Shown: piece by piece, positions 29,156 through 49,512 of the stretch | How the letters are laid out: each line of letters starts with the position of its first letter | Position numbering within the stretch: position 1 is the first letter of the stretch | NCBI RefSeq assembly: GCF_002210165.1 | Contig: NZ_AQQP01000007.1 | Location: 124,001-188,000, forward strand | DNA: 64,000 nt | From: Phaeobacter sp. 22II1-1F12B | GTDB taxonomy: Bacteria; Pseudomonadota; Alphaproteobacteria; Rhodobacterales; Rhodobacteraceae | Reading direction: 5' to 3' | Position numbers and translations under genes: made by a program | Notes under the pieces: model-generated | Databases searched by the model: none | Seen by the model: only the letters and a program-made list of their open reading frames with translations | What the model was told of the DNA's origin: nothing

Positions 29156-29206
29156 AATACGTTTGAACCAAATATTGAAACTTTATGACCCAGCGGGTGC
29201 AGAAAA

Positions 29207-30955: not shown

Positions 30956-32920
30956 ATGACTCAGACTGAAAAAGACCGTCCCTGGCTGATCCGGACTTAT
31001 GCGGGCCACTCCACCGCCAAAGCATCCAACGCCCTTTATCGCGGCAACCTCGCGAAGGGACAGACCGGCCTTTCAGTTGCTTTCGATCTTCCGACGCAGA
31101 CGGGCTACGATAGCGATCATGTTCTTGCCCGTGGCGAAGTGGGTAAAGTCGGCGTGCCTGTCGCGCACCTCGGCGACATGCGCACACTTTTCGATTCCAT
31201 TCCGCTGGAACAAATGAACACCTCCATGACTATCAACGCCACCGCCCCTTGGCTGTTGGCGCTCTATATTGCCGTGGCAGAGGAACAGGGCGCGGATATT
31301 TCCAAGCTGCAGGGAACCGTGCAGAACGATATCATCAAGGAATATCTTTCGCGCGGCACGTACATCTGCCCGCCGAAACCTTCGCTGAAATTGATTACCG
31401 ACGTCGCGGCCTATTGCTATCGGAATGTTCCGAAATGGAACCCGATGAACGTTTGTTCCTACCACCTGCAAGAAGCGGGCGCGACGCCGGAACAAGAATT
31501 GGCCTTTGCGCTGGCCACCGCGCAGGCCGTTCTTGACGGAATGAAGGACATCGTGCCCGAAGAAGATTTCCCCACGGTTGTCGGCCGCATTTCGTTTTTC
31601 GTGAATGCCGGGATTCGCTTCGTCACCGAAATGTGCAAGATGAGAGCTTTCGTCGACCTCTGGGATGAAATCTGCCTGACGCGATATGGCGTCACGAATC
31701 CTAAACTGCGCCGCTTCCGATATGGTGTTCAAGTTAATTCACTTGGGTTGACCGAACAACAACCGGAAAACAACGTCTATCGGATCTTGATTGAAATGCT
31801 CGCGGTGACATTGTCCAAAAACGCACGTGCCCGCGCCGTGCAATTGCCAGCATGGAACGAAGCATTAGGTCTGCCGCGTCCCTGGGACCAGCAGTGGTCT
31901 ATGCGAATGCAGCAAATTCTCGCCTATGAGACGGATCTTCTGGAATATGACGATTTATTCGACAATAACCCCGCAATTGATGCGAAAGTTGCCGAATTGA
32001 AGAAGAACGCCCGCGCTGAATTGGACAACCTCGAAGGCATGGGCGGCGCGATCTCCTCCATCGAATACATGAAATCTCGTCTCGTCGACTCCAACTCGGA
32101 GCGGCTGAACCGGATCGAATCCGGCATGACCACCGTCGTTGGCGTCAACAAGTTCACAACGAGCGAGCCTTCCCCGCTCATGAGCGAGGACGGCGGGATC
32201 ATGACGGTCGACCCGGCCACCGAGCAGGACCAGATCGATCGCCTGAACGCATGGCGCGAAACCCGTGACGAAAACGCCGTAAGAAGCGCTCTGGAAGGTC
32301 TCAGAGCCGCTGCGACGTCAGGCGCGAACATCATGGAACCCTCTATTATTGCGGCGAAAGCCGGTGTTACCACGGGCGAGTGGGCGGAAGAGATGCGCCG
32401 AGCCTTTGGCACGTACCGCGGCCCCACGGGTGTCTCCGCCTCGCCCTCCAACAAGACCGAAGGGCTGGACGAAATCCGCGCGGCCGTGGACGCGATCAGC
32501 GACACGCTCGGGCGGCGCCTTAAATTCCTGGTGGGCAAGCCCGGCCTCGACGGACACTCTAATGGCGCCGAGCAGATCGCCGTTCGTGCCCGCGACTGTG
32601 GCATGGATATCACCTATGACGGCATCAGAATGACGCCGGAAGAAATAGTTGACGAAGCGTCAAAACAGGACGCGCATGTAATTGGTTTATCAATTTTGTC
32701 AGGAAGCCATCTGCCTTTGGTCGAAGACGTAATTGAGCGGCTAAAAGCCAAAAAAATGAGCCACATTCCCGTGATCGTGGGCGGTATTATTCCTGACGAG
32801 GATGCCGAGAAACTTATCAAAATGGGAGTTTCTAAAGTTTATACGCCCAAGAATTTTGAGCTTAATACAATCATGATGGATATTGTTGGCTTGGTTAACC
32901 CTTCGTTAATAGCGGCATAA
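30956..32920 (+). CDS. ecm: Ethylmalonyl-CoA mutase
   Basis: Ecm is a B12-dependent mutase that turns (2R)-ethylmalonyl-CoA into (2S)-methylsuccinyl-CoA in the ethylmalonyl-CoA pathway. The 654-residue protein opens RPWLIRTYAGHSTAKASNALYR, has FDLPTQTGYDSDH and SFFVNAGIRFVTEMCKMRAF, and ends in a B12-binding domain with the DxHxxG motif in GLDGHSNGAEQI (about 527-538), GLSILSGSH and VVGGIIP. The family start fits the ATG at 30956. Codon use shifts within the gene: AT-richer before about 32030, GC-rich to about 32635, then AT-rich to the end. Confidence 0.95.
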   Translation: MTQTEKDRPWLIRTYAGHSTAKASNALYRGNLAKGQTGLSVAFDLPTQTGYDSDHVLARGEVGKVGVPVAHLGDMRTLFDSIPLEQMNTSMTINATAPWLLALYIAVAEEQGADISKLQGTVQNDIIKEYLSRGTYICPPKPSLKLITDVAAYCYRNVPKWNPMNVCSYHLQEAGATPEQELAFALATAQAVLDGMKDIVPEEDFPTVVGRISFFVNAGIRFVTEMCKMRAFVDLWDEICLTRYGVTNPKLRRFRYGVQVNSLGLTEQQPENNVYRILIEMLAVTLSKNARARAVQLPAWNEALGLPRPWDQQWSMRMQQILAYETDLLEYDDLFDNNPAIDAKVAELKKNARAELDNLEGMGGAISSIEYMKSRLVDSNSERLNRIESGMTTVVGVNKFTTSEPSPLMSEDGGIMTVDPATEQDQIDRLNAWRETRDENAVRSALEGLRAAATSGANIMEPSIIAAKAGVTTGEWAEEMRRAFGTYRGPTGVSASPSNKTEGLDEIRAAVDAISDTLGRRLKFLVGKPGLDGHSNGAEQIAVRARDCGMDITYDGIRMTPEEIVDEASKQDAHVIGLSILSGSHLPLVEDVIERLKAKKMSHIPVIVGGIIPDEDAEKLIKMGVSKVYTPKNFELNTIMMDIVGLVNPSLIAA

Positions 32921-32962
32921 TATTTCTTAGATCGTAAAAAAAGGCGTGTATCCCGCGAATGA

Positions 32963-33007
32963 ACGTTATATTAACGTCATATGTGTCAAGTGTTGACGCT
33001 AATTAGC
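32963..33007. promoter_or_regulatory. Palindromes upstream of the H-NS-like gene
   Basis: ACGTTA-TAT-TAACGT (32963-32977) is a perfect 15-bp palindrome, and GCTAATTAGC (32998-33007) a perfect 10-bp one, in an AT-rich 113-bp gap before the H-NS-like start. AT-rich palindromes here could be operators or autoregulatory sites. No promoter with good spacing was found. Confidence 0.4.
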
Positions 33008-33033
33008 ATCAATACAAAGTTAAGGATGGTTAC

Positions 33034-33363
33034 ATGGCTATTGATCTAACGACGATGTCGCGCAAGGAACTTCTGAAATTGCGTGATGATGTCGAGAAGG
33101 AATTGACGCTTGTGGAAGAGCGTGAACGCAAAGAGGCACTGAAAGCGGCCCAGGATGTGGCAGCTCAATACGGCTATTCCCTTTCGGAACTCGCCGAAGC
33201 GGCTGGCAAAAAAGGGCGCGGCAAAGGAAAACGTTCCAAAACCGGGCCGAAATACCGCAATCCGGATGATGCTGAACAGACATGGTCGGGTCTCGGCCGG
33301 AAACCGCAATGGTTCCATGATGCGCTTGCAAATGGCGTCGACATGAAAGACCTTGAAATCTGA
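33034..33363 (+). CDS. H-NS family nucleoid protein (HvrA-like)
   Basis: A 109-residue H-NS-type protein. The N-terminal half is a charged coiled-coil oligomerisation region (ELLKLRDDVEKELTLVEERERKEAL). The C-terminal DNA-binding part is KYRNPDDAEQTWSGLGRKPQWF, with a basic linker KKGRGKGKRSK before it. Relatives include HvrA of Rhodobacter, which affects photosynthesis and redox genes by binding AT-rich DNA. AAGGA precedes the ATG by 8 bases. It probably silences AT-rich regions and may bind its own AT-rich upstream region. Confidence 0.9.
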   Translation: MAIDLTTMSRKELLKLRDDVEKELTLVEERERKEALKAAQDVAAQYGYSLSELAEAAGKKGRGKGKRSKTGPKYRNPDDAEQTWSGLGRKPQWFHDALANGVDMKDLEI

Positions 33364-33384
33364 TAATAATATTCGGATTTCGAA

Positions 33385-34089
33385 ATGACGATACACATCG
33401 GCGCTCAACCGGGCGATATTGCACAGACAGTGCTGTTGCCCGGCGATCCTTATAGGGCCAAATGGGCAGCCACCACGTTTCTTGATGATGCGCGGCTGGT
33501 TAATGATGTGCGGGGCATGCTGGGCTATACCGGCACCTGGAAAGGAAACCCCGTCACCATACAGGGAAGCGGCATGGGCATGCCCTCCCTGTCAATTTAC
33601 GTAAATGAACTGATCCGCGACTATGACGCGCAGACCCTGATCAGGATCGGGTCCTGTGGTGCCATGCAGAACTCGGTGAAGGTCCGCGATGTCATCATCG
33701 CAATGACGGCCAGCACGATGAGCACGCCGTCACGGGGGATCTTCCGCGAATTGCAATTCGCGCCCTGTGCCGACTGGTCCCTGCTGTCAGCCGCAGCCAA
33801 GGCAGCTGAGGCCAAAGGCACAAGGACGCATGTGGGCGGCATTTATTCGTCTGATACGTTCTATGATGAGAGACCGGACCTGAACGAGGAAATGACGCGC
33901 CACGGCATCCTGGGTGTCGAAATGGAAGCGGCGGAGCTTTACACGCTTGCAGCGCGCTATGGTCGGCGTGCCCTCGCGGTGCTGACTGTTTCCGACCATC
34001 TTCTGACCGGTGACGCACTGCCCTCGGACCAGCGTGAGACCAGCTTTGGCGATATGGTCGAGATCGCCCTGCAATCAGCCTTTGAATAA
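33385..34089 (+). CDS. deoD: Purine-nucleoside phosphorylase, DeoD type
   Basis: DeoD cleaves purine (deoxy)nucleosides with phosphate to base and (deoxy)ribose-1-phosphate. The 234-residue protein has the trimeric-class features: opening [34 protein letters not shown], and [33 protein letters not shown] with the catalytic-site aspartate. The nucleoside-type BMP importer at 17126-21785 could supply its substrate. A bidirectional hairpin separates it from the convergent VPLPA-CTERM gene. Confidence 0.94.
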
Positions 34090-34093
34090 AAAA

Positions 34094-34117
34094 ACAGCGA
34101 CCCGAAAGGGTCGCTGT
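34094..34117 (-). terminator. Shared hairpin terminator between deoD and VPLPA-CTERM gene
   Basis: ACAGCGACCC-GAAA-GGGTCGCTGT is a perfect 10-bp stem with a GNRA tetraloop. On the minus strand it is followed by seven T residues, making a strong terminator for the VPLPA-CTERM gene. For deoD the plus-strand side lacks a T-run, so it may only stabilise the 3' end. Confidence 0.88.
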
Positions 34118-34139
34118 CATCACGTTCATTTATTGCCGA

Positions 34140-34796
34140 TCAGGATTTCGACTTGCGGCGCCGCATCGCTGCCAGCCCACCGAAACCAGCCAGCATCAGC
34201 CAACCTGCCGCCGGAAGAGGCACCTGAGCACCCGGGTTCGGGTTGCCCGGGCTTTCGCCCGCTGTCGTGATCACCGACTTGGCAAGGGTCACGATCCATC
34301 CAGCGGTCAGCACGTCGATGTCCATCCAGAGTTTCAGCCCGGTCTCCACATCATCGTAGAGAGCCGTATCAAGGGTAAACTCTGTAAAGGAATAGGCGTT
34401 ATCCATACCGGTCAGCGCCCCGATCAAAAGCCACTCACCAGCTCCGGCATTACCCGCAGCGTCATATCCGTAGATATTGTCGACTTCGCAAGAACTACCG
34501 CCACAAACGTCGTCAACGTCGTAGTTCGAGACGTTCAGTTTGATTTCGCTCGCAGAACTGGCTCCCGGAATGGCGTCGTGCATCCAGCCCCAGTCCTCAC
34601 TTGAACCCCGGTAATAGGGGCTGTCCGTCGGCGAATTGGCAGGCGGGATGAAATAGTTAGAGTTCGTACTCGACCCACCGAAGTCGACCAGAGTGGCCGC
34701 GTCCGTGTAGTCGTAAGTATCGACTGCGGCGCTTGCCATACCTGCCGACAATGTCGTGGCCAGGACGGCAGCTAGGGTTACTTTCAACTTCATCAT
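34140..34796 (-). CDS. VPLPA-CTERM sorting-domain protein
   Basis: A 218-residue exported protein with signal peptide ending GMASAA and the C-terminal sorting tail VPLPAAGWLMLAGFGGLAAM followed by RRRKSKS: motif, membrane helix, basic end. This is the VPLPA variant of PEP-CTERM, processed by an exosortase-type enzyme and often linked to exopolysaccharide or surface proteins. The middle has two cysteines (VCGGSSCEV) and no known domain. The ATG at 34796 has GGAG 8 bases upstream. No exosortase gene is in the window. Confidence 0.88.
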   Translation of the reverse strand: MMKLKVTLAAVLATTLSAGMASAAVDTYDYTDAATLVDFGGSSTNSNYFIPPANSPTDSPYYRGSSEDWGWMHDAIPGASSASEIKLNVSNYDVDDVCGGSSCEVDNIYGYDAAGNAGAGEWLLIGALTGMDNAYSFTEFTLDTALYDDVETGLKLWMDIDVLTAGWIVTLAKSVITTAGESPGNPNPGAQVPLPAAGWLMLAGFGGLAAMRRRKSKS

Positions 34797-35074
34797 ATTA
34801 AAACTCCGAAAACGCATAATATTAGGTCACAAGCACCTTTAGATTGCCTTATTTTTGCCTGAATTCAAAACAGTTTCCCGCATTTGGACACGCCGCATAG
34901 CTTTCACACAACCCTGGCAACCGGATAAAAACAATGTTTTCAGACTGTTGACGGAAAACGAGGTAATAAGTTTTTTCTTACCCCCGCGCTGCCCTGGCCT
35001 CGCGAAGCACACAATTCAAAGCGAATTTGAACCAGAACAGGTTTTTCAGCATGCGCGGCGGCCAGATGGGGGCG

Positions 35075-35923
35075 CTAACTGATTCCGTGACCGCCTTCGT
35101 AGGCACTTGGCGCCGGTTCCTGCCATCCAGCCAAGTCATTGGCCGCCGGAGCAAATATCTCCACATGCAAAGGATGGCACGCCGCCGTGTCGCTTGAATG
35201 TTCCGAGCTGCAATCCCCGCCGGGACAGGCGCTGAGCGATCCGATTAGATCGATCTCGGCAAAGAACTCAAGATAATCGCCGGGCCGTACAGGGCTGGCT
35301 TTCATGAAATATTGCCCGGTATCGCGGGTGAACCCCGTACACATGAAAACGTTCAGCACATCATGCACGCGAGTCTCGGCGACCTCCACGGGCATATCCA
35401 GATAGGCGGACAGGCTGCGCGTCAGGTTCGAATGGCAGCAGTGATGGTAAGAGCCACCGGACAGCAGCGCGCCGGTATAAGGGTCGCAGCGTGTTCCGAT
35501 CACGTCATGAACCGAGCCGCCGAATGCGTCGATACCGTACCAGTCCAGCGTGTCCTCAATGATCGTCGCCATCGGTCGCATGTTTGGAAAACTCGACCAC
35601 AAACGATCGCCGGTGCTGACATGGGTGCCGTGCAGCGCGCGGGTCTTGCCGGAATAGAACCTTTCGGAAATGTCATTCGCGTTCCACAGGTTGAGATCGC
35701 CAACCTGCGGCCCCTCCACCGATGAAATACGAAAGAAATGCCCCGCTGGCACGCGAAAGCAGCGCGCATCCCGGGGCGGCACCATAACCTCATCCGTCGA
35801 CAAGGCCCCTGCCCTCGCCGCGCGGTAGAGCGAGAGATCGGGTTTCGGCAGGGTCTCGGTCGGGTAACAGATCACCGGCGCAATCGCGCGGCGGGCCTCT
35901 GCATCATCTGGAGCATCATTCAT
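35075..35923 (-). CDS. DUF1989 (urea carboxylase-associated) family protein
   Basis: The 282-residue protein contains the DUF1989 fold: VPPRDARCFRVPAGHFFRI, GPQVGDLNLWNANDISERF, then GGSYHHCCHSNLTRSL and DVLNVFMCTGFT with clustered His/Cys residues that may bind a metal. Family members often sit near urea or guanidine carboxylase genes, but none is present here. The start is uncertain: ATG at 35923 is used; a GTG at 35953 would add ten residues. The biochemical role is unknown. Confidence 0.78.
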   Translation of the reverse strand: MNDAPDDAEARRAIAPVICYPTETLPKPDLSLYRAARAGALSTDEVMVPPRDARCFRVPAGHFFRISSVEGPQVGDLNLWNANDISERFYSGKTRALHGTHVSTGDRLWSSFPNMRPMATIIEDTLDWYGIDAFGGSVHDVIGTRCDPYTGALLSGGSYHHCCHSNLTRSLSAYLDMPVEVAETRVHDVLNVFMCTGFTRDTGQYFMKASPVRPGDYLEFFAEIDLIGSLSACPGGDCSSEHSSDTAACHPLHVEIFAPAANDLAGWQEPAPSAYEGGHGIS

Positions 35924-35963
35924 GCCAGCACGTTGCGTCGAAACAGCAGGCACCGCAAGCCCG

Positions 35964-36158
35964 TCACGTTTTCAGACAGGTCTGCGGCGGTTTGCCTGTA
36001 TCGCTCATGACTTCAGCACCGCAGGCGGCACAGCGGAAAAAGCTTTGCTCTTCCGTGTCGCGCCGCTTGTCCATGCGCCACCGGCAACCGCGGGTTTCGG
36101 GGCGCGAATAGATCATGATCAGCACAAGGGCGACGATAAAGATGATGGGATAGATCAT
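35964..36158 (-). CDS. Small membrane protein with CxxC
   Basis: A 64-residue protein with one N-terminal helix (YPIIFIVALVLIMIY) and a C-terminal FRCAACGAEV that looks like half a zinc ribbon, plus another cysteine near the end. AGGGATC precedes the ATG. It is unrecognised, but the ribosome-binding site and composition support a real gene. Confidence 0.6.
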   Translation of the reverse strand: MIYPIIFIVALVLIMIYSRPETRGCRWRMDKRRDTEEQSFFRCAACGAEVMSDTGKPPQTCLKT

Positions 36159-36202
36159 GTCCGATCCCTATCCCCTTTCCTGCCCGAATTGCAAAACCCT
36201 GA

Positions 36203-36346
36203 TCAGGCGACTTCTGCGTAATCGAAAAGATCGGGTTCGCGTGTTTCAGCTTCGGCTTTTTCGGCCGGGGTGAAATAATCCCAAGCTTCTTCAAGCAAGG
36301 CGAGCGCACGTTGAGCGGGGGTCTGGTTCTGATGGTCTTCCAGCAT
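36203..36346 (-). CDS. Small acidic hypothetical protein (47 aa)
   Basis: MLEDHQNQTPAQRALALLEE begins a 47-residue helical, acidic protein. AGGAGAGA lies 6-7 bases before the ATG, a strong ribosome-binding site. A longer open frame upstream is a non-coding shadow. Function unknown; a regulatory or adaptor peptide is possible. Confidence 0.65.
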   Translation of the reverse strand: MLEDHQNQTPAQRALALLEEAWDYFTPAEKAEAETREPDLFDYAEVA

Positions 36347-36462
36347 GGGAGTCTCTCCTGGACGTGTTTTCCTCCCTGCCCCCCATGTACTCCGACCGCC
36401 TGCGGATGACCTCCGATGAAACCGAAAACACGCCATGCATTCGGCGCAATGCTTACCCAAGG

Positions 36463-36909
36463 TTAGTTTAGCCGCCAGACCTGCAGGGTCTCTGTATCCA
36501 CCACCCAGTCCACCGTCAGTGTCGGGCAGCAACGCGGATCGTTCGGCCCCGGCATCGTCGTCTTTAGCCGGACCTGACCGGGGTAGAAATTCGCCTCGCG
36601 CGGGCTTGTGCCGAAAACCTCGACCGGGCCGATGAAATGCCATCCGTCGGGTTTGCGCTTGAAAAGCCCGGCGTTCAGCATTGTCGCGTTACCACCGTCG
36701 CGATTGTCAAAGTAGTGAAAGATCAGCGCGGTTTCCGCGACACCGGGATCGGGATCATTCGAAAACAGGATCGGCGCCCTGTCGCCAGGCCGGACATCCA
36801 GCACCTGTGCGGTCAGCGGAGAGATAAAGCTCCAGTCCTGCGCGACAGCAGGACCGGAAAAAAGGGAAAACGCCAGCAAAAACCCTGCCAGCGTTCTCCG
36901 CGTATGCAT
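36463..36909 (-). CDS. Small exported protein downstream of sdhB
   Basis: A 148-residue protein with a signal peptide ending PAVAQ and a mature part that includes YFDNRDGGNATMLNAGLF and a CC pair in DPRCCPTLTVDWVV. Its ATG overlaps the sdhB stop by one base (TGATG), so it is co-translated with the succinate dehydrogenase genes. I know no function. Its linkage suggests a role in the periplasm connected with respiration or simply use of the strong sdh transcript. Confidence 0.75.
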   Translation of the reverse strand: MHTRRTLAGFLLAFSLFSGPAVAQDWSFISPLTAQVLDVRPGDRAPILFSNDPDPGVAETALIFHYFDNRDGGNATMLNAGLFKRKPDGWHFIGPVEVFGTSPREANFYPGQVRLKTTMPGPNDPRCCPTLTVDWVVDTETLQVWRLN

Positions 36910-37688
36910 CAGACGGCGCGCTCCACCATCATCTTCTTGATCTCTGCAATTGCCTTGGCCGGGTTCAGGCCCTTGGGGCAGGTCTTGGTGCAGTTCATGA
37001 TCGTGTGGCAGCGATACAGCTTGAACGGGTCTTCCAGCCCGTCCAGACGCTCGCCCGTGGCCTCGTCGCGGCTGTCGATGATCCAGCGATAGGCATGGAG
37101 CAATGCGGCCGGCCCAAGGTAACGGTCGCCATTCCACCAATAGCTCGGGCAGGATGTCGAGCACGACGCGCACATCACGCATTCATACAACCCGTCAAGC
37201 TTCTTGCGGTCCTCGATGGACTGCTTCCACTCTTTCGCGGGACGGTTCGTCTTGGTTTCGAGCCACGGCATGATGCTGGCGTGCTGGGCATAGAAATGCG
37301 TCAAGTCCGGGATCAGGTCGCGCACCACCGGCATATGCGGCAGCGGATAGATCTTTACGTCACCCTTGACCTCGTCCAGCCCGTAGATACAGGCCAGCGT
37401 GTTGATCCCGTCGATGTTCATCGCACAAGAGCCGCAGATCCCTTCGCGGCAGGACCGGCGGAAGGTCAGCGTCGGGTCGATCTCGTTCTTGATCTTGATG
37501 AGCGCGTCCAGAACCATCGGGCCGCACTTGTCCATATCAAGGAAATAGGTATCGACGCGCGGGTTTTCCCCGTCATCGGGCGACCAGCGATAGATGTCGA
37601 ACTTGCGAACGTTCGTCGCGCCCTCGGGCTTGGGCCATGTCTTGCCCTTCTTCATGCGCGAATTCTTGGGAAGTGTCAGTTGTACCAT
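36909..37688 (-). CDS. sdhB: Succinate dehydrogenase iron-sulfur subunit
   Basis: SdhB passes electrons from the flavin subunit to quinone through 2Fe-2S, 4Fe-4S and 3Fe-4S clusters. The 259-residue protein shows the cysteine sets in order: [12 protein letters not shown] (N-terminal ferredoxin domain), [16 protein letters not shown], and [24 protein letters not shown] precedes the ATG. It is the fourth gene of sdhCDAB. Confidence 0.98.
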
Positions 37689-37698
37689 TTTGCTCTCC

Positions 37699-39504
37699 TC
37701 AGAACGTCCGTTCTTTCGGCGCGATCTTCTTCAGCGAGATACCACCTTCGGCCTCGGTGCTGAGCGGATCCTTGATCACGTCGCGATAGGTCAGCTTGAC
37801 GTTTTTGCCGTCGAGATGCGCAATCGTGTGCACCCGCCAGTTTTCGTCGTCGCGGGCTGTGAAATCCTCGTGCGCATGGGCGCCACGGCTTTCCTTGCGG
37901 GCCTCGGCACCGGCGATGGTCGCCAGCGCGTTCGGCATCAGGTTCGTGAGCTCCAGCGTTTCCATCAGGTCCGAGTTCCAGACAAGGCTGCGGTCCGTGA
38001 CCTTAATGTCGCTCAGCTTGGCCGCGATGGCATCCATCTTCTCGACGCCTTCCGAGAGCGTTTTCGAGGTCCGGAACACCGCCGCATCCGCCTGCATGGT
38101 GCGCTGCATCTCAAGCCGCAGTTCTGCCGTCGGCACGGCGCCATTGGCGTTGCGGAAATGATCGAACCGATCAAAGGCCGCATCCACGCTCGCCTGGTTG
38201 AGCACCGGGTTCTTGCTCGACGGATCGACAACCTTACCGGCCCGGATCGCAGCCGCACGGCCGAACACCACGAGGTCGATCAGCGAGTTCGAGCCCAGAC
38301 GGTTCGCGCCATGCACGCTGGCACAACCAGCCTCGCCCACGGCCATCAGGCCCGGCACGATGGCGTTGGAGTCGCTCTCGGTCGGGTTCAGCACTTCGCC
38401 CCAGTAGTTGGTCGGAATGCCACCCATGTTGTAATGGACCGTCGGCAGAACCGGGATCGGTTCCTTGGTCACGTCGACACCGGCAAAAATCTTGGCCGAT
38501 TCCGAGATGCCCGGCAGCCGTTCCGCCAGCGCTTCGGCAGGCAGGTGGCTCAGGTTCAGGTGGATGTGGTCACCATGTTCACCAACGCCACGGCCTTCGC
38601 GGATCTCCATCGTCATCGAGCGCGAGACGTAGTCCCGCGGCGCGAGATCCTTGTAGGTCGGCGCGTAGCGTTCCATGAAACGCTCGCCTTCAGAGTTGGT
38701 GAGGTAGCCGCCTTCGCCACGTGCGCCCTCGGTAATCAGGCAGCCCGACCCGTAAATGCCGGTCGGGTGGAACTGCACAAACTCCATGTCCTGCAGCGCA
38801 AGACCTGCGCGCGCCACCATGCCGCCACCGTCACCGGTGCAGGTATGGGCCGAGGTCGCGCTGAAATAGGCACGGCCGTAACCGCCCGTCGCCAGCACCA
38901 CCATCTTGGCGTTGAAGACGTGCATGGTGCCGTCGTCGAGCTTCCAGCAAACAACACCCTGACACTGCCCGTCCTCGGACATGATCAGGTCGATGGCGAA
39001 GTATTCAACGTAGAACTCGGCGTTGTTCTTCAGCGACTGGCCGTAAAGCGTGTGCAGGATCGCGTGGCCGGTCCGGTCTGCCGCGGCACAGGTCCGCTGC
39101 ACCGGGGGGCCTTCGCCGAATTCAGTCGTGTGGCCACCGAACGGGCGCTGGTAGATCTTGCCCTCTTCGGTGCGCGAGAAGGGCACACCGTAGTGTTCCA
39201 GTTCATATACCGCCTTGGGCGCTTCGCGGGCGAGGTATTCCATCGCATCCGTGTCGCCCAGCCAGTCCGACCCCTTGACGGTGTCATACATGTGCCACTG
39301 CCAGTTGTCCGGACCCATGTTGGACAGCGAAGCGGCGATCCCGCCCTGCGCCGCAACCGTGTGCGAACGCGTCGGGAAAACCTTGGTCACGCAGGCGGTG
39401 CGCAGCCCCTGCTCGGCCATGCCGAGCGTCGCACGCAAGCCCGCGCCACCGGCGCCGACAACTACGACGTCATATTCATGCGTCTCGTATTCGTATGCGG
39501 CCAT
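37699..39504 (-). CDS. sdhA: Succinate dehydrogenase flavoprotein subunit
   Basis: SdhA oxidises succinate to fumarate on covalently bound FAD. The 601-residue protein has the dinucleotide fold [16 protein letters not shown], the FAD-linking histidine in [14 protein letters not shown], and the active-site region [23 protein letters not shown]. The ATG has AAGGAG upstream. Downstream spacing to sdhB is 10 bp. Confidence 0.98.
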
Positions 39505-39514
39505 TTTAGTCTCC

Positions 39515-39886
39515 TTACAGGGCGAGCTTGATCAGCGCATAGACGGACACTGCGATGATGGCGTAGGCCACGCAGGTAACGGCGATGATCGTAATGCGGC
39601 CCGTGAAGCCGTGAACATAGTCCTCAATCGCCATCTGGGCGCCGGACTTAAAGTGAAGCATCCCGACCCAGATCGTCAGCGCGGCGACGATGGCGGGGAA
39701 CGGACGGCTGTAATAGGCGGTGACCTCTTCATAGGTGCCGCCCAGCGCCGAGCCAAAGGTAAAGACGAACAGCGGCACCAGAATGATCAGCGCAATCGAG
39801 CTGATCTGCATATGCCAGTGATGTTCGGTGCCGGATTTGGCCGAACCAAGGCCAACGGCGCGCTTGCGGTCGGTAAGATAACGCAT
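39515..39886 (-). CDS. sdhD: Succinate dehydrogenase membrane anchor subunit
   Basis: A 123-residue protein with three membrane helices that anchors SdhAB. Features are [16 protein letters not shown] at the N-terminus and [16 protein letters not shown] before the third helix. GAGGAGG lies just upstream of the ATG. It sits between sdhC and sdhA with 10-bp gaps. Confidence 0.95.
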
Positions 39887-39896
39887 CTGGGCCTCC

Positions 39897-40286
39897 TCAG
39901 ACGATGATGACGGTCAAAAGCGTCAGGACAACAGAACCGCCAATGACGATCCAGCCAAGCTTGTCGGCGGTTTCCATCTCAAGGCACAGCCCCTGATCCC
40001 AGATCAGGTGCCGGATACCCGCCAGCGAGTGATACCAGAGCCCTAGCACCGAGAAGAACATGATGAGATCGCCGATAAACGAGGTGACGAACCAGTCGGC
40101 CCGGTTGAAAGCGGCCTCGGACGTGGCGGCGGCAAGCAACCACCAGGCGATCATCAGCGCGGCCACGATCATCGCGTTTCCGGTGATACGGGTCAGGATA
40201 GACGTGACAGAGTTGAGCTGAGGCCTGTAGTATTTCCCCAACATAAAGGGTGACAGCGGGCGATTGCCCCGATTGACATCGGCCAT
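39897..40286 (-). CDS. sdhC: Succinate dehydrogenase cytochrome b556 subunit
   Basis: The 129-residue SdhC has the family pattern RPLSPFMLGKYYRPQLNSVTSILTRITG and the haem-region WYHSLAGIRHLIWD, with three membrane helices. It helps bind haem b and ubiquinone. AAAGGAG precedes the ATG at 40286. It is the first gene of sdhCDAB; a pair of TGTGATCACA-type sites lies 116 bp upstream. Confidence 0.96.
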   Translation of the reverse strand: MADVNRGNRPLSPFMLGKYYRPQLNSVTSILTRITGNAMIVAALMIAWWLLAAATSEAAFNRADWFVTSFIGDLIMFFSVLGLWYHSLAGIRHLIWDQGLCLEMETADKLGWIVIGGSVVLTLLTVIIV

Positions 40287-40401
40287 CTTGGCTCCTTTCA
40301 GGTTGGCTGCCCCCGTTAATAATGGATTTTTGCGCCGTGTCACGCGGCTGCATCCATAAAAGGCGCGGTTTTTTGGCGCGGCTGGCAATGTTTCCACATT
40401 T

Positions 40402-40432
40402 TGTGATCACGAAGTTTTCCGCTGTGATCACA
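40402..40432 (-). promoter_or_regulatory. Paired TGTGATCACA operators upstream of sdhC
   Basis: TGTGATCACA at 40423-40432 and TGTGATCACG at 40402-40411 start exactly 21 bp apart, two helical turns. The proximal copy ends 116 bp before the sdhC ATG. Read toward the gene, the pair matches that upstream of sucC at 46652-46682 in sites, spacing, flanks (CACAAA then TGT) and distance. The remainder of the 40287-40559 gap has no gene. The regulator is unknown; the palindrome type is compatible with a GntR-like dimer. Confidence 0.65.
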
Positions 40433-40559
40433 CTAGCGCGGATTAAACCCGTTTCGAGGCGACTCGTTAAATTCTTACTGAAAATCTGCGAATTACGCCG
40501 TCTGTCGCGGCGCGTTCATTTTCACACAGCACCTTGCTCGCCCGCGAAACTACCGCCGA

Positions 40560-41150
40560 TCAAAGCCTCTCCAGTTGCTCCATCGGCGCCCATCCGGCCT
40601 TTACCGCGCGGTTTTCGGGATCGAACCTGTACCAGTTGCCGCCGCCCTTCTGATCATGGCTCCGGCTGATCGGTTTCCCGGCCAGTGCGCACCACAAAAG
40701 CGTCCCCACCGCCCCATGTCCGACAAAGACAAGAGGCCCCTCGGGGACCGTGCGCACGACCTCATTCACTTCGCGCAGAATACGCTGCTGCGCCGCCTCG
40801 GCGGTTTCCCAGCCACGCACCGGCTCTCCGGGACGGGCAAAGAACTGATCCGCAACCTGCTCGAACTCCTCGCGCGGCAGGTATCCCGTCGCCGAGCGGT
40901 TGTTCTCGTGCATGTTCGGGCGCGTGATAACGGGATTCCCACTCCGGAGAGCCAGTGGAGCGGCAGTTTCCAGCGCCTTGCGCTCGTCGCTCGAAACCAC
41001 CTGCGCGCCAGACAGGCCGCGCAACCGGGCGACAAGCGCCTCGGCCCGCGCCAGACCAACGGCGGAAAGAGACCAGTCAGTCACCTCTCGCGCCGGGTCG
41101 ATTTCGACTTCCGGGTGGCTCAGATAGATCGCCCGGAACCCGTTGCTCAC
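40560..41150 (-). CDS. Histidine phosphatase superfamily protein
   Basis: A 196-residue protein of the phosphoglycerate-mutase-like fold. The usual RHG motif reads LSHPE (AIYLSHPEVEIDP): the catalytic histidine remains but the preceding arginine is lost. The second histidine is in LVFVGHGAVGTLLW. Loss of the arginine may alter or abolish phosphatase activity. The GTG at 41150, overlapping the mch stop (GTGA), is used; an ATG at 41168 would add six residues. Substrate unknown. Confidence 0.7.
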   Translation of the reverse strand: MSNGFRAIYLSHPEVEIDPAREVTDWSLSAVGLARAEALVARLRGLSGAQVVSSDERKALETAAPLALRSGNPVITRPNMHENNRSATGYLPREEFEQVADQFFARPGEPVRGWETAEAAQQRILREVNEVVRTVPEGPLVFVGHGAVGTLLWCALAGKPISRSHDQKGGGNWYRFDPENRAVKAGWAPMEQLERL

Positions 41151-42178
41151 AGCGGCATCAATGCCCAATAGTCAAGATCAAGCAGCACCTCGGACAGATA
41201 CTTGCCATCCTCGCCTTTCAGCTTGAACGGTTCTCCGCCCTTGGTCGCGACCAGCCGCAACCGGATCGCACCGACACCCGGCGCGCTTGTTTCGGCCTTG
41301 TCCAGCACCTCGGACCACGCCTTGACCGTATCGCCCGAGAAGCACGGGTTCGCATGCGCACCACCATTCAGCCCGACGATCATCTGCGCGTTCGCCAGCC
41401 CGTTAAAGGACAGCGCCCGCGCCATCGAAATCACATGCCCGCCATAGATCAGACGTTGCCCATCGGGCCGGAAGGTCGCGTCGAAATGCACCTTGGCCGT
41501 GTTCTGCCACAGCCGCGTGGCGATCATGTGCTCGGCTTCCTCGATGGTCACCCCGTCCACATGATCGATGGTCTCGCCGATTTCGTAATCGCTCCAGCGA
41601 TGCGACTCTCCGGCCAGCGCAAAATCATAACCGCTGAAATCCAGCCCATCCGGGATCACCAGATCCTCTGGCGCCACCACCTTGCTCAGTTCTGGCACCA
41701 CCGTTTCCGGCGCAGGCGCGTCGAGGTCGCTCTTGCGCACCATTACCCAGCGCACGTATTCCATGACGGTCTCGTCCCGCTGGTTCACACCGCGAGAGCG
41801 TACATAAACCACCCCGGTCTTGCCGTTCGAGTTCTGCTTGAGCCCGATCACCTCGGATTCCGACCGCAGCGTATCCCCCGCCCAGACCGGTTTCAGCCAG
41901 CGCCCCTCGGCATAGCCAAGATTCGCCACCGCGTTCAGCGACACATCCGGCACCGTTTTGCCGAATACGACGTGAAACGCTGCCAGATCATCGATGGGGC
42001 TTGCCGCCAAACCACTGGCGCGGGCGAACTCATCCGACGAATAAAGCGCATGCCGCGCCGGGTAGAGCGCATGATAAAGCGCACGTTCCCCTCCGGAAAC
42101 GGTACGCGGCACCGCGTGGGTCAGAACCTGACCCAGTTGGTAATCCTCAAAGAAACGGCCGGGGTTGGTCTTGGCCAT
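41147..42178 (-). CDS. mch: Mesaconyl-CoA hydratase (MaoC-type)
   Basis: Mch hydrates mesaconyl-CoA to beta-methylmalyl-CoA in the ethylmalonyl-CoA pathway. The 343-residue protein has two hot-dog modules; FFEDYQLGQVLTHAVPRTVSGGE opens the first and DYEIGETIDHVDGVTIEEAEHM the second. Length and sequence style fit the Mch group rather than single-domain MaoC proteins. GGGAGAG lies upstream of the ATG, which overlaps the DUF1737 stop by one base. Mcl2 is encoded 1 kb upstream on the same strand. Confidence 0.9.
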   Translation of the reverse strand: MAKTNPGRFFEDYQLGQVLTHAVPRTVSGGERALYHALYPARHALYSSDEFARASGLAASPIDDLAAFHVVFGKTVPDVSLNAVANLGYAEGRWLKPVWAGDTLRSESEVIGLKQNSNGKTGVVYVRSRGVNQRDETVMEYVRWVMVRKSDLDAPAPETVVPELSKVVAPEDLVIPDGLDFSGYDFALAGESHRWSDYEIGETIDHVDGVTIEEAEHMIATRLWQNTAKVHFDATFRPDGQRLIYGGHVISMARALSFNGLANAQMIVGLNGGAHANPCFSGDTVKAWSEVLDKAETSAPGVGAIRLRLVATKGGEPFKLKGEDGKYLSEVLLDLDYWALMPL

Positions 42179-42381
42179 TACTGCTCTCCCAGCTTGATGT
42201 CCGGCGTATAGGTGCCGTCCACCTCTTTCGTGACCGCCTGCCCGCAACGCATCGACCCGGTTTCTGCATCATGCGCATAGGTCGGAGAGCCGTAAAGCTC
42301 CCACCCCTTGTTCAACGCATCCGTAACCTTATGGCAAAAGGCCGAAGTGTCGTTTTCGCTGAGAAAGCGGTAAAGTTTCAT
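42178..42381 (-). CDS. DUF1737 protein
   Basis: A 67-residue protein with the DUF1737 pattern MKLYRFLSENDTSAFCHKVTDALNKGWELYGSPTY in which the Trp-Glu-Leu-Tyr-Gly core is conserved. AGGAG precedes the ATG. The stop overlaps mch by one base. Function is unknown. Confidence 0.8.
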   Translation of the reverse strand: MKLYRFLSENDTSAFCHKVTDALNKGWELYGSPTYAHDAETGSMRCGQAVTKEVDGTYTPDIKLGEQ

Positions 42382-42401
42382 TCAGATCTCCTGATTTCGG
42401 G

Positions 42402-42947
42402 TTACCCGAAAGGGTTATAGCCAAGCAGCATGTGGATCACGGCGACAACGGCAAAGACCACCACACCGCCAACGACGGCCATGATTTCCTTGCGCACCGG
42501 TGCAGGCTCCGGCGGTGTCCATGTCGGTTCGGTGCGGTTGATCATGACCATCGACACAATCGCCCATACCAACAGCCCGCCCCAGAGAACGAAAGACGGC
42601 GTGTCCCCGTTGACCAGCAGATGCCCCACGCACCAGAGCGAAAAACCGATGAGCTGCGGATGCCGGGTAAGGCGCGTCACGCGCGTCTTCATGCCCGATG
42701 CGGCGAAAAGGTAGAAAGCCACCAGCACCAGCAGGTTGTTGATGCCGGTCATTGCCGGGCTGCGGCCCCAGAAAAAGGCGCCATCCGCGCTGCGATAGCC
42801 GATCACCATCAAAATGATCGACAGAAGCAGCGCGAGCGAGATCGGACCGCGCCCCTTTTCTCCCATACGGGCCCGCGCATCGGGCGCGATGAACTTGAAC
42901 AGATGTGCAAGCGCCCAGAGCAGGACACCGAGAGTGAGGATGAGCAT
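42402..42947 (-). CDS. NnrU-family membrane protein
   Basis: The 181-residue membrane protein shows the NnrU pattern: LILTLGVLLWALAHLFKF, PALTG-like loop, RHPQLIGFSLWCVGHLLVNGD and a final helix. NnrU was linked with nitric oxide and nitrite reduction in Rhodobacter, but most family members occur apart from those genes, as here. The RHP motif is shared with isoprenylcysteine methyltransferase-like proteins. GGAG lies 8 bases before the ATG. Confidence 0.82.
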   Translation of the reverse strand: MLILTLGVLLWALAHLFKFIAPDARARMGEKGRGPISLALLLSIILMVIGYRSADGAFFWGRSPAMTGINNLLVLVAFYLFAASGMKTRVTRLTRHPQLIGFSLWCVGHLLVNGDTPSFVLWGGLLVWAIVSMVMINRTEPTWTPPEPAPVRKEIMAVVGGVVVFAVVAVIHMLLGYNPFG

Positions 42948-42999
42948 GGCTTACTCCGTAAAGCGGCTGGATCTTATGTGAATCCAGTTCACATAGCCC

Positions 43000-43854
43000 T
43001 TATTGCGCCATCGCCGCAATAGCCTCGGCTTTGGCCAGTGTCTTTTGAGCGGTTTCCACGTGCAGGTTCTCGACAATTTTACCATCCACCACGGCAACGC
43101 CCTGCCCCGACTTGTGCGTCTCCTCATAGGCCGAAATCTGACGCCGGGCGAGGTCGACCTCTTCTTCCGACGGCGCAAAGGCACGGTTTGTCACCTCGAC
43201 CTGCGCCGGATGGATCAGGGTCTTGCCGTCAAAGCCCATGTCGCGGCCCTGAATACATTCTTCTTCCAGCCCGTTTTCGTCGAGATAGGCGTTGAACACA
43301 CCATCCACGATGATCAGCCCTTCGGCCTTGGCCGCCAGCAGGCACAGTCCCAGCGCGGTGAGCATCGGTTCACGGTCGGGGCGGAACCGGGTCTGCAATT
43401 CCTTGGCAAGGTCATTGGTGCCCATCACCATGCCCTGCAATTTCGGATGCGCGGCAATTTCGGCGGCGCGCAGCATGCCGCGCGGCGTCTCCATCATCGC
43501 CCAGATCGGCAGATCGCCGGTGATCTCGGCCAGGGCGTCCAGATCGGCAGCACTGTTCACCTTGGGAAGCAGCACCGCGTCGACATCCATTTCGCGCACG
43601 GCTTCGGCATCGGCCTTGCCCCAGGGCGTATCGAACCCGTTGATCCTTACAATCCGCGCCCGATTGCCATATCCGCCGTCTGCAATCGCCTTCGCCAGAA
43701 CCGCGCGCGAGGCGTCTTTTTCCTCGGGCGTCACCGCGTCCTCGAGATCGAAGATGATCGCATCCACCGCCAGACCCCGCGCCTTGTCCAACGCGCGTTC
43801 TTTCGACGCCGGAATATAAAGAACGGAACGGTAGGGGCGATTCATCGGGTCCAT
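43000..43854 (-). CDS. mcl2: (3S)-malyl-CoA thioesterase (Mcl2-type CoA ester lyase fold)
   Basis: The 284-residue protein has the citrate-lyase beta fold: SVLYIPASKERALDKARGL, IIFDLEDAVTPEEK, magnesium-site glutamate in MMETPRGML, and VMGTNDLAKELQTRFRPD. Its length and these segments fit Rhodobacter-type Mcl2, which hydrolyses malyl-CoA to malate, rather than the longer Mcl1 lyase. The ATG at 43854 has GGAGG 5 bases upstream. It sits with mch and completes the exit of the ethylmalonyl-CoA pathway; mcl1 is not in the window. A CGCAATATT element lies 19 bp upstream. Confidence 0.88.
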   Translation of the reverse strand: MDPMNRPYRSVLYIPASKERALDKARGLAVDAIIFDLEDAVTPEEKDASRAVLAKAIADGGYGNRARIVRINGFDTPWGKADAEAVREMDVDAVLLPKVNSAADLDALAEITGDLPIWAMMETPRGMLRAAEIAAHPKLQGMVMGTNDLAKELQTRFRPDREPMLTALGLCLLAAKAEGLIIVDGVFNAYLDENGLEEECIQGRDMGFDGKTLIHPAQVEVTNRAFAPSEEEVDLARRQISAYEETHKSGQGVAVVDGKIVENLHVETAQKTLAKAEAIAAMAQ

Positions 43855-44190
43855 ACTGGCCTCCAAAGGTCATAATATTGCGTGGAAAGGGGCATTTTTT
43901 TACGGAAAGTTCAAGGCGAAATGCGCCGCGATGCAGCAATTGAAGTAAATTCTTCCTATTTGAATGCGCCCGTTAGGCGGGAAATCAAAAGAAAGGGCGC
44001 TCGATTAACCATTTCTCAGCCCGACTCGCCCTAGGTTTTCATATCGGATCCGGGAACTCGGCATTGGCTTACCTGCCTTCTTTAAACAGGCACCGGATTC
44101 CAAAGCATACAAACTGGGCTTTTCCGCCCGGCACACCGGGCGACCGGCGTGCCAGTCCGGATCGGCACGACTCATGGATAGGTATAGAAG
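43855..44190. other. Divergent intergenic region with operator and hairpins
   Basis: The 336-bp gap has no convincing gene. On the minus strand CGCAATATT (43882-43874) continues as ATGACC just before the mcl2 ribosome-binding site. On the plus strand, ahead of the exported-protein gene, two hairpins can form: CGCCCGG/CCGGGCG at 44125-44142 and CGTGCC/GGCACG at 44148-44169. The rest shows nothing I can name. Confidence 0.55.
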
Positions 44191-44508
44191 ATGAAAAACG
44201 CATTCTTCCCGCTGGCGATCACCGCCATCACCTTCGCGTCGGCGGCCGAAATCGCCCAGGCGCAACAAACCCGCAACTGCGCCCCGCGTGAGGTTGTCGT
44301 TGGCCGTCTTGCTGGTGGTTACGGCGAAACCCGGCAAAGCATGGGACTCGCCGCGCGCGGTTCCGTGGTCGAGGTTTTTGCCTCGGACGAAACCGGCACG
44401 TGGACGATCACCGTGACCAACCCCGCCGGTGTCACCTGCCTCGTTGCCTCCGGCCAGTCGTTCGAGGCTTTAGCCGAGGCGCTGCCCCCAGAAGGCAACG
44501 ACGCCTGA
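44191..44508 (+). CDS. Small exported hypothetical protein
   Basis: A 105-residue protein with a signal peptide ending AQAQQ and a mature part of about 80 residues, including NCAPREVVVGRLAGGYGETRQ and WTITVTNPAGVTCLVASG with two cysteines that may pair. Small SH3-like secreted proteins of this look are common in Rhodobacteraceae, without known function. Two hairpins precede it. Confidence 0.7.
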   Translation: MKNAFFPLAITAITFASAAEIAQAQQTRNCAPREVVVGRLAGGYGETRQSMGLAARGSVVEVFASDETGTWTITVTNPAGVTCLVASGQSFEALAEALPPEGNDA

Positions 44509-44615
44509 ACCAGACGTTCCATCCGGCTGGCGCGGCTCTGGTGCACCGCCAGCGGAACTTCAGCCACCCGCCACGCGGAAAGTGAACTCCCTTCAGACTT
44601 TCCCAAAGATGGCCT

Positions 44616-45371
44616 TCAGGCGAGCCCTTCCCAGATCAGCTTTGCACCGGTCACGACCAGCAACACATAGGTCAGACCGAAAAAGAGCCGTTCAGGCACG
44701 ATCCGGTGCGCTTTTACTCCGATCAGAGCCCCCGCAATCGCAACCGGCGCAAGCGCCAGGTTGGCGAGCGCAGTTTCGGCCGTGAACAGGCCCAGAAATG
44801 CATAGGGCACAAATTTCACGATATTGATGACCCAGAACACCAGCACCGTCGTGCCCTGATAGCTTGTCTTGTCCAGCTTCCGCGACAACAGGTACACGGC
44901 CGCGGGCGGCCCGCCCGCATGGCTCACGAAACTGGTGAACCCCGCGACCAGCCCGGCCAGCCCGCCGACCCAGGCTGACAGACGCGTGCCCCCGGCCCGG
45001 ATCAGCCTCATGCGCCGCCCTGCCTGCCAAACGACGAAGGCAAGCGAAATCCCCCCGATCAGCACCCGGAACACATCGGGCTCGGCAACCTTGTAGAGCA
45101 AGGCGCCCAGAACCACCCCGGGCACGGCACCAAGGATCAGCAGCCGCGCATCCGGCCAGCTCCACGTTTTCCAATAGGGTCGCAGCGTCGTCGCATCAAT
45201 CAGCATCAACAGCGGCAGCATCACCCCAAGCGCCTGTCCCGGCGTCAGAAAAAGCGCCAGAATCGTCGAAGAGGCAAAGGCCGCCCCGGACCCGAATCCG
45301 CCCTTCGAGATGCCCGCGAACAACACCGCAGGCACCGCCACCGCGAAAAATGCCCAGTTCAACTCAAGCAT
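44616..45371 (-). CDS. TSUP (TauE/SafE) family permease
   Basis: A 251-residue membrane protein with GISKGGFGSGAAFASSTILALFLTPGQALGVMLP at the N-terminus and FTSFVSHAGGPPAAVYLL in the second half, both typical of the TSUP family. It is a different branch from the 21901 gene and lacks a TIGR02186 partner. Likely transport of a small anion; the substrate cannot be inferred. Confidence 0.85.
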   Translation of the reverse strand: MLELNWAFFAVAVPAVLFAGISKGGFGSGAAFASSTILALFLTPGQALGVMLPLLMLIDATTLRPYWKTWSWPDARLLILGAVPGVVLGALLYKVAEPDVFRVLIGGISLAFVVWQAGRRMRLIRAGGTRLSAWVGGLAGLVAGFTSFVSHAGGPPAAVYLLSRKLDKTSYQGTTVLVFWVINIVKFVPYAFLGLFTAETALANLALAPVAIAGALIGVKAHRIVPERLFFGLTYVLLVVTGAKLIWEGLA

Positions 45372-45462
45372 TGGCTACCCCCTAAGCACCTCGTTTGCCT
45401 AGGGATTAACCGATCGTCAATCTTTCCGGCAGACCGTCCTGCGACGCGTACAGTTGCAGTGA

Positions 45463-46503
<1,041 letters not shown>

Positions 46504-46651: not shown

Positions 46652-46682
46652 TGTGATCACAGCTTTTCGGCCTGTGATCACA
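46652..46682 (+). promoter_or_regulatory. Paired TGTGATCACA operators upstream of sucC
   Basis: Two perfect TGTGATCACA palindromes at 46652-46661 and 46673-46682, starting 21 bp apart, themselves form a larger inverted repeat (TTTGTGATCACAG, 9-base spacer, CTGTGATCACAAA). They end 111 bp before the sucC ATG. The same pair, in the same orientation and distance, precedes sdhC. This points to one regulator of both TCA-cycle operons. Confidence 0.7.
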
Positions 46683-46793
46683 AATGTCGTTTTTTTTGTC
46701 AAAACCTGTGGCCAGACCCCATTTTTGGGTTAACCCGTTATCAAGACTGGGCGTATAGCCCCGAGCAAACGCAAGCAGACGGGAACGACTTTC

Positions 46794-47987
46794 ATGAACA
46801 TCCACGAATATCAGGCCAAGGCCCTTCTTCGCAGCTACGGCGCCCCGGTGTCCGACGGCAAGGTCATCCTCCGCGCGGAAGACGCGAAAAACGCGGCTGG
46901 CGAACTTGATGGACCGCTCTGGGTCGTCAAGGCACAGATCCACGCCGGCGGCCGCGGCAAGGGCTCGTTCAAGGAAGCCGAAGCAGGCGAAAAAGGCGGT
47001 GTCCGTCTTGCCAAATCGGTCGAGGAAGCCGCCGAGGAAGCCAAGAAGATGCTTGGCAAGACCCTCGTGACTCACCAGACCGGCCCGGCGGGCAAGCAGG
47101 TCAACCGCATCTATATCGAAGACGGCTCGGATATCGAGCGTGAGCTTTATCTCGCCCTTCTGGTCGATCGCGTTTCCAGCCGCGTTTCTTTCGTCTGCTC
47201 GACCGAAGGCGGCATGGACATCGAAGAGGTCGCTGCCTCGACCCCGGAAAAGATCCTCAGCTTCAGCGTCGATCCCGCCACCGGTTACCAGCCGTTCCAC
47301 GGTCGCCGCGTCGCCTTTGCGCTGGGTCTCGAAGGCCCCGCCGTCAAGCAATGCGTTCAGCTCATGGGCATCCTCTACAAGGCCTTCATCGAGAAGGACA
47401 TGGAGATGCTGGAAATCAACCCGCTGATCTTGATGCCCGGCGGCCAGCTCAAGGTACTCGACGCCAAGCTCGGCTTTGACGGCAACGCCATGTACCGCCA
47501 GCCCGAGGTATCCGAACTTCGCGACACGACCGAGGAAGACCCCAAGGAACTCGAAGCCTCCAAGTATGACCTGAACTACATCGCGCTTGACGGTGAGATC
47601 GGCTGCATGGTGAACGGCGCGGGTCTTGCGATGGCCACGATGGACATCATCAAGCTCTACGGTGCGGAACCCGCCAACTTCCTCGACGTGGGCGGCGGCG
47701 CGACCAAGGAAAAAGTGACCGAAGCGTTCAAGATCATCACATCGGACGAACAGGTCAAAGGCATTCTCGTCAACATCTTCGGCGGCATCATGCGCTGCGA
47801 CGTCATCGCCGAAGGCGTGGTCGCTGCGGTGAAAGAAGTCGGCCTTCAGGTGCCGCTGGTTGTCCGTCTCGAAGGCACCAACGTCGAGGAAGGCAAGAAG
47901 ATCATCAACGAAAGCGGTCTGGACGTCATCGCCGCCGATGATCTGAAAGACGGCGCCGAAAAGATCGTGAAAGCGGTCAAAGGCTGA
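46794..47987 (+). CDS. sucC: Succinyl-CoA synthetase beta subunit (ADP-forming type)
   Basis: SucC with SucD makes succinate, nucleoside triphosphate and CoA from succinyl-CoA. The 397-residue protein opens [19 protein letters not shown] and has the ATP-grasp segments [14 protein letters not shown] and [23 protein letters not shown], and [16 protein letters not shown] near the C-terminus. sucD follows 1.5 kb later rather than directly, because two other genes lie between. Confidence 0.97.
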
Positions 47988-48081
47988 TCCATGTTTCCCG
48001 TCCGTCAGGTCTGGCACAGGTTAAAGCGCACCGTCGGGGAACCGACGGTGGCTTTGGCCGTTGATGTGCATCAGGACATGA

Positions 48082-48405
48082 ATGGACAGGACGATGGATT
48101 TACCAGGCAAGGATTATTTGGAAGACGACCGGGTCACACCGATTGCGGTGGGCGTTGGCCTGCTGGCGGTCGGGGCGCTATTGTGGAAAACCAAGCCCTC
48201 GATGCTCGACATGCCCGACCCGCTGCCGCTGGGCAAGGAACCGGACGACAGCTTTTCCCGCCGCGCCCTGCGCAAGACCCGCGACGGGGTGAGCCACGTG
48301 GCCCCCAGCAACCTCAGCGTCTCTCTGGGCCGTTCGATGGTGATCGGCGGGCTGGCACTCGTGTTGACACGCATTCTGGACGAGCTCACCGGCAAAGAAG
48401 ACTGA
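48082..48405 (+). CDS. Small membrane protein between sucC and sucD
   Basis: A 107-residue protein with two hydrophobic helices (VTPIAVGVGLLAVGALLW and SLGRSMVIGGLALVLTRIL) joined by a basic loop. AGGA is 5 bases before the ATG at 48082; a second ATG at 48094 has poor spacing. Unrecognised, but composition matches the flanking genes, so it is probably a native small gene of this operon. Confidence 0.55.
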   Translation: MDRTMDLPGKDYLEDDRVTPIAVGVGLLAVGALLWKTKPSMLDMPDPLPLGKEPDDSFSRRALRKTRDGVSHVAPSNLSVSLGRSMVIGGLALVLTRILDELTGKED

Positions 48406-48479
48406 CGTCGGCTGTTGCGACGCAAGCGACCGATCGCTCGAATACCGCTCCTTCGAATTGCAGAACTGCCGGGTACAGC

Positions 48480-49496
48480 CTGAGCACATTCGTTGGCGCT
48501 GCTGGCTTTGTCCTTGCGTGTCTCTTCTTCCCCGACGCATCCACGGCGCAGACCCCCGGCGACATCAATGCCGCCAACGAGTTGCGCATATGTCTCTGGG
48601 AAGATGCCGGGCTTCGTACCGCGCCGCGAGCCGGCGAATTACAACGCGGCATCGACCGTTTCCAGAATGAAGAAATCTGGTCTGTCAGTGAGATTGACAC
48701 TGGCGTCTACAGGATTGCGCGGAGCAAATCCTCAGGGCTCACGGCTGAAATCCGACTGCCGGACGCGAATGGAAACGCGACGTGCCTTCTTTACGGACCG
48801 GCGATGTCGCCCGGTCAGGCGGCTGGCGCAGCGGATAAATTCGTAGAATTCGGCATCCTCAAGGGTTTCCCCGAGGGCGGAGGCTTCGTTGCAGCGGAAC
48901 CACTGCCAAACATGTCACGTCGCTACGTGGCTCAGGGCCTGCCCTTCTCTCTTGAACTAGTGGCCTACGAAGCGCCCGGTTTCGGTCAAATCGTCGGGAT
49001 GACTTTCACGGGGCTCGACAAGGTTGAGGACGCCCGCCAATTGACCGCTGGGCAGCCCCCGGAATCTCGCGACACGCTGCGTGCCTATTCAGCATGGGCT
49101 CTACAAACCTGCGCTCAGAACATCTCAGACAGCGACTGGTTGCGTTCAGCATTCGACAACAGTGGTATGGAGTACGGCTGGCCGGCATCGAACGGTCACG
49201 TGTACTTTCTTGCCGACAACACTTTGTCCGCAAATGTCGGTTCGTTCACTTGTGAAATCGACACTCATTACATGGGAGTGACCGAGGCCCGCCAGCTTGT
49301 TCGGGAAACGCTGAACCGCGCTTATCCCGGACAGTTTAACGAAAGCGAATCCAGCTACAGCGGCTGCCCCAGATTCATCAGCAACGCCAACCCGAACATG
49401 CCGATCATCATCAATGTCGAAAACCTCGACAAAGATGCTCAGCGAACATGTGTAGAGAACGGCGCAAGCCGTATCTACTTCGAAATTCCAGGATAA
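48480..49496 (+). CDS. Exported hypothetical protein without clear start codon
   Basis: About 338 residues are coded here. The N-terminal part is a good signal peptide ([22 protein letters not shown]) and the mature protein has several cysteines ([36 protein letters not shown]). No ATG, GTG or TTG in frame precedes the signal peptide nearby; the best positioned codon is CTG at 48480. The start may be non-standard, or the gene may have lost its start. Codon use and content differ from sucC and sucD on either side. I do not recognise the family. Confidence 0.5.
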
Positions 49497-49512
49497 CCAC
49501 AAAGGGACCATC

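Follow-up and report, generated by a model that had tools for sequence, protein, structure and literature searches.

Paired palindromes before sucC and sdhC as a probable tandem operator for the GntR-type activator AkgR

Results

The sucC and sdhC leaders

We analysed a window of 64,000 nucleotides (the whole stretch of DNA under study) in which sucC, encoding a subunit of succinyl-CoA synthetase, and sdhC, the first gene of the sdhCDAB operon, are each preceded by a pair of sites that match the palindromic 10-mer TGTGATCACA (Table 1). An earlier note on this DNA had described two perfect TGTGATCACA sites with a spacing of 21 bp, 111 bases before sucC, and the coordinates confirm this description. 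The same note held that the arrangement equals that at sdhC, which is true of the 21-base spacing but not of the distance to the start codon (111 versus 115 bases, the latter counted from site 2) or of the flank (CACAAATGT versus CACAAAATGT); the common orientation that it also listed is meaningless for a palindrome.

Table 1. Putative operator sites, possible promoters and proposed target genes in the window
Feature	Position	Strand	Remarks
Putative operator site 1, sucC leader	46652..46661		TGTGATCACA, perfect palindrome
Putative operator site 2, sucC leader	46673..46682		TGTGATCACA; 21 bases from site 1; 111 bases to ATG
Possible sucC promoter	46730..46759	+	TTAACC-N18-TATAGC, read by eye
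sucC, succinyl-CoA synthetase beta subunit	46794..47987	+	ATG at 46794; proposed target
Putative operator site 1, sdhC leader	40423..40432		TGTGATCACA, perfect
Putative operator site 2, sdhC leader	40402..40411		CGTGATCACA on the minus strand, one mismatch
Possible sdhC promoter	40316..40343	-	GTGACA-N16-TATTAA, read by eye, outside the promoter scan
sdhC, succinate dehydrogenase cytochrome b556 subunit	39897..40286	-	ATG at 40286; gene 1 of sdhCDAB; proposed target

A promoter scan upstream of sucC gave no sigma-70 match, and the promoters in Table 1 are readings by eye. If they are correct, the centres of the two sites would lie approximately 88 and 109 bases upstream of the transcription start at sucC, and approximately 97 and 118 bases upstream of it at sdhC. 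Such a distance upstream of the start is a usual location for an activator.

Several other features of the region were recorded. Between the sdhC pair and the sdhC start lies the block GCGCCAAAAAACCGCG (40379-40364, minus strand), for which we know of no factor. It has one exact copy genome-wide, and at two mismatches a reversed control matches equally often; with up to three mismatches it was found in 10/29 sdhC leaders versus 1/38 sucC leaders, the sucC set containing repeat fetches. The gap between sucC and sucD measures about 1.5 kb here and holds one or two extra open reading frames (47988-49512), while in L230, a locus of the relative G046 that is described below, it measures 7 bases. 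Genes that we read as those of the ethylmalonyl-CoA pathway (ccr, ecm, mch and an mcl2-like gene) lie at 27785-46503 among the sdh and mdh genes, with mch and the mcl2-like gene keeping the same position in L230.

Occurrence of the pair in the genome

Single sites are not significant: the window contains four matches to TGTGATCACA with at most one mismatch, a number that 7 of 100 shuffles also reach. The pair, in contrast, is rare. As a pattern of 20 fixed bases with a 21-base spacing and up to three mismatches, it occurs at exactly two places in the genome of 5,533,619 bases, namely before sucC and sdhC, and the reversed control of this pattern gave no match in the whole genome. Likewise, exact copies of the core GTGATCAC lying 16-26 bases apart were found genome-wide in the sucC and sdhC leaders only, with none for the control. 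The suggestion that gltA, icd and acn might carry the module was not borne out, because the genome holds the pair at these two places and nowhere else (the three genes were not individually located).

Perfect copies of TGTGATCACA number four genome-wide, two of them at sucC, one at sdhC and one at a gene of the GntR/FCD type. With up to one mismatch there are 62 sites in this genome, 50 of which are among the matches listed. Five listed sites of the CGTGATCACA/TGTGATCACG type outside the window were inspected as possible further targets and give no support for this idea, since four lie within long open frames; the fifth is 69 bases before an open reading frame that, in our own reading, resembles an aminotransferase. 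Outside this inspection fell six further sites from the list, of the GGTGATCACA or AGTGATCACA type, in which the GTGATCAC core is preserved, as well as the 12 sites beyond those listed, the window's site at 40402 included.

The GntR/FCD gene at the fourth perfect site

The fourth perfect TGTGATCACA (C22:372406-372415) ends 11 bases upstream of the ATG of a gene for a GntR/FCD protein of 215 amino acids, and overlaps its ribosome-binding region. This gene is located on contig C22, directly downstream of a gene for a YgjP-type metallopeptidase, and was also recovered by a search of the genome for FCD-type GntR proteins, where the match at C22:371783-372142 (minus strand), one of 29, adjoins the fourth perfect site. 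The protein combines an N-terminal GntR winged helix (PF00392, E = 1.6e-13) with a C-terminal FCD domain (PF07729, E = 1e-16), both over the cut-off, and thus belongs to the FCD subfamily. A protein with 100% identity to it is found in a record of Heliomarina baculiformis, which points to this genus, or a very close one, as the origin of the window.

The site before the regulator gene recurs in public sequences. Related public loci numbered 504, of which the best 80 were kept, a selection biased toward close relatives. A perfect TGTGATCACA is present upstream in 76 of these 80, and of the remaining four, two have a site with one mismatch, one a site with two and one none; sites were counted up to 104 bases before the matched stretch, whose start corresponds to residue 1-14. 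One public record (L180) is labelled Nocardioides marinus and is probably mislabelled or a mixed assembly. Four additional perfect sites, found in the public loci L114, L141, L158 and L164, revealed no coherent target.

Co-occurrence of the regulator gene and the pair in the family

Next we compared the distribution of the regulator with that of the pair. An orthologue of the C22 GntR protein is present in 106 of 120 genomes of the family, our own included, and absent in 14, a division based on the break in best E-values from 1.8e-81 to 3.7e-48; across relatives its identity ranges from 63 to 92%. A class-wide search (E <= 1e-60) found the orthologue in 6 of 387 genomes, again with our own included, all of which are from the same family. 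With a 21-base spacing and up to three mismatches, the pair was found in 100/105 relatives bearing the orthologue (62/66 + 38/39) versus 3/14 without it (Fisher p ~1e-9).

There are exceptions to this co-occurrence. Three genomes with the orthologue and no 21-base pair (G008, G050 and G063) carry a pair before sucC at a spacing of 20 bases. Two more have the orthologue: in G056 no pair was seen and sucC was not found, and in G080 none was seen with the 21-base pattern. On the other side, no orthologue was found in G018 and G105, although the pair in each is genuine; the two assemblies consist of 210 and 320 contigs, respectively, and the regulator gene may be missing from them for this reason. 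G106, also without the orthologue, has three-mismatch matches only, of which the one fetched lies at neither gene, and sucC was not found there. In the 11 genomes lacking both regulator and pair, sucC was found (13 loci, including two second copies) and no GTGATCAC core is present within 300 bases before it; in one of these genomes, G100, sucC is preceded by TGTGATCAAA, which differs from the site at one position.

These distributions bear on the rival explanation that some other regulator uses the palindromes, be it a different FCD-type GntR paralogue or a protein of the CRP/FNR type with TGTGA/TCACA half sites. The genome does hold 29 FCD-domain matches, and the half sites are similar to CRP half sites. 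However, the C22 gene is alone among the 29 in standing at a perfect site, and the presence of its orthologue tracks the presence of the pair; moreover, CRP sites have six bases between their half sites, whereas here there are zero. We consider this explanation very unlikely.

Position and spacing of the pair across relatives

Of 60 pair loci from two pattern searches, 59 lie before sucC or sdhC (29/30 + 30/30). Among the further pairs fetched from relatives, two with three mismatches (L192 and L193) stand at neither gene, and two sdhC leaders (L095 and L199) have degraded pairs with two mismatches that fail the stricter pattern. Given that the pair is restricted to two leaders across 5.5 Mb and conserved at the same genes throughout the family, we rejected a chance origin; although the shuffles reproduce the number of single sites in the window, the probability that these are chance palindromes is close to nil.

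For distinct leaders with a pair, the spacing is 21 bases in 58 and 20 bases in 3 at sucC, and 21 bases in 32 at sdhC, counts that overstate the uniformity because most leaders were fetched by the 21-base pattern. For the same reason the figure of 61/61 leaders is partly circular, while the per-genome tallies and the separate sucC search are free of this. A spacing of 20-21 bases amounts to two helical turns, and would most naturally be read as a pair of dimers bound to the same face of the helix.

In G037, a pair at L188:793-823 (G037:C16:228292-228322) ends 123 bases before fumC, encoding a class II fumarase, which suggests that the regulon may reach fumarase in some genera.

Relation to AkgR of Rhodobacter sphaeroides

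One of the relatives, G046, offers a bridge to a described system. Its sequence matches the solved malyl-CoA lyase chain 4l9y at 310/310 residues, the next best genome reaching 92%, and since 4l9y is an R. sphaeroides protein, we took G046 as Rhodobacter sphaeroides. Its gene order is lpd-sucB-sucA-sucD-sucC-mdh...mch-sdhCDAB, followed by a gap of 0.75 kb after sdhB, the GntR orthologue and ygjP. The GntR gene beside sdhB is 75% identical to the C22 GntR, and from the gene order we infer that it is RSP_0981. The same locus (L230) has a one-mismatch pair before sucC and a perfect pair before sdhC. In R. sphaeroides, RSP_0981 is known as AkgR and is said to activate TCA genes, reportedly from the work of Imam and co-workers (Imam et al. 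2015, mBio).

Passages of two papers link this regulator to the operons and the sequence found here. One passage predicts that RSP_0981 (GntR) regulates SCS, SDH and KGDH, with RSP_0967-6, RSP_0974-6 and RSP_0965-62 as predicted targets, which are the same operons (PMC4344238); another gives GTGATCAC as the motif of AkgR and calls the protein a transcriptional activator (PMC6365646). The present system is thus like the AkgR regulon, as far as these passages describe it (predicted targets sucCD, sucAB-lpd and sdh), in its GntR regulator, orthologous to RSP_0981 by the gene order of G046, and in the GTGATCAC core, of which the pairs before sucC and sdhC supply four copies in two leaders. The proposal of the earlier note, a common operator module for the TCA cycle with a GntR-type regulator, gains support from this comparative evidence and from the published AkgR motif. 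A literature text search with the full 10-mer TGTGATCACA returned no title recognisably on this regulator.

The two systems differ in that the C22 regulator gene lies on a different contig from sdhB and carries one perfect site where its own coding sequence begins, whereas in R. sphaeroides (G046) no site was found within 200 bases before gntR, the best match having four mismatches. Autoregulation through an own-gene site is therefore not universal. Two further regulators share single traits with the system. PS417_07240, a GntR protein of Pseudomonas simiae that is 32% identical to AkgR, has a GTGATCAC palindrome 40-47 bases before its own start; in contrast to AkgR, it is proposed in the relevant passage to control a deoxyribose catabolism cluster and not the TCA cycle (Price et al. 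2019, PMC6365646). CceR (RSP_1663) has mdh and sdh among its predicted targets in R. sphaeroides, but is described in a passage on it as a LacI-type regulator of central carbon metabolism with the motif [A/G/T]GTT N6-8 AAC[A/C/T] (PMC4344238).

Discussion

The pair is real and very probably functional. With high confidence we propose that AkgR, an activator of the FCD-type GntR group, uses it as a tandem operator, because of the orthologue and gene order in G046, the predicted targets and the published motif. It is a regulatory system of an already known kind, now found outside the genus of its first description, and as such of low surprise.

Under the proposed mechanism, each TGTGATCACA palindrome would be bound by one AkgR dimer, and two such dimers, two helical turns apart and possibly cooperating, would occupy the same side of the helix, upstream of the putative sucC and sdhC promoters. 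Bound AkgR would then stimulate transcription of both the suc and the sdh operon. At the lone site over its own translation-start region, AkgR would probably damp its own expression, repression at this gene being likely because the site overlaps the ribosome-binding region.

That overlap can also be taken to favour the view that the pairs are repressor operators, at which the GntR protein would keep both sucC and sdhC repressed until a metabolite releases it, and many GntR/FCD proteins are indeed repressors. Against this, the paired sites lie approximately 90-120 bases upstream of the putative starts and off the core promoters, insofar as the promoters are correctly placed, and AkgR is called a transcriptional activator in a passage of PMC6365646. 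Repression at sucC and sdhC is accordingly an unlikely role for the pair, although less remote than the action of another regulator.

Returning to AkgR as an activator, we put forward more tentatively that it may read the number and phase of its operators: a tandem pair at 20-21 bp would activate sucC and sdhC, and a lone site at its own start would repress. This arrangement would constitute a built-in feedback switch that is absent in R. sphaeroides, and the tandem module would reach fumC in one genus or more. The rule on spacing, the site at the regulator's own gene and the pair before fumC are candidate small additions to the knowledge of AkgR.

Read in this way, core operons of the TCA cycle would, in a broad family of bacteria, be placed under one dedicated and highly conserved regulator. 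Its operators are invariant enough to be spotted by eye. AkgR control may be predictable from sequence in many genera, and the system would provide a clean test case for the use of paired sites by activators of the FCD-GntR type.
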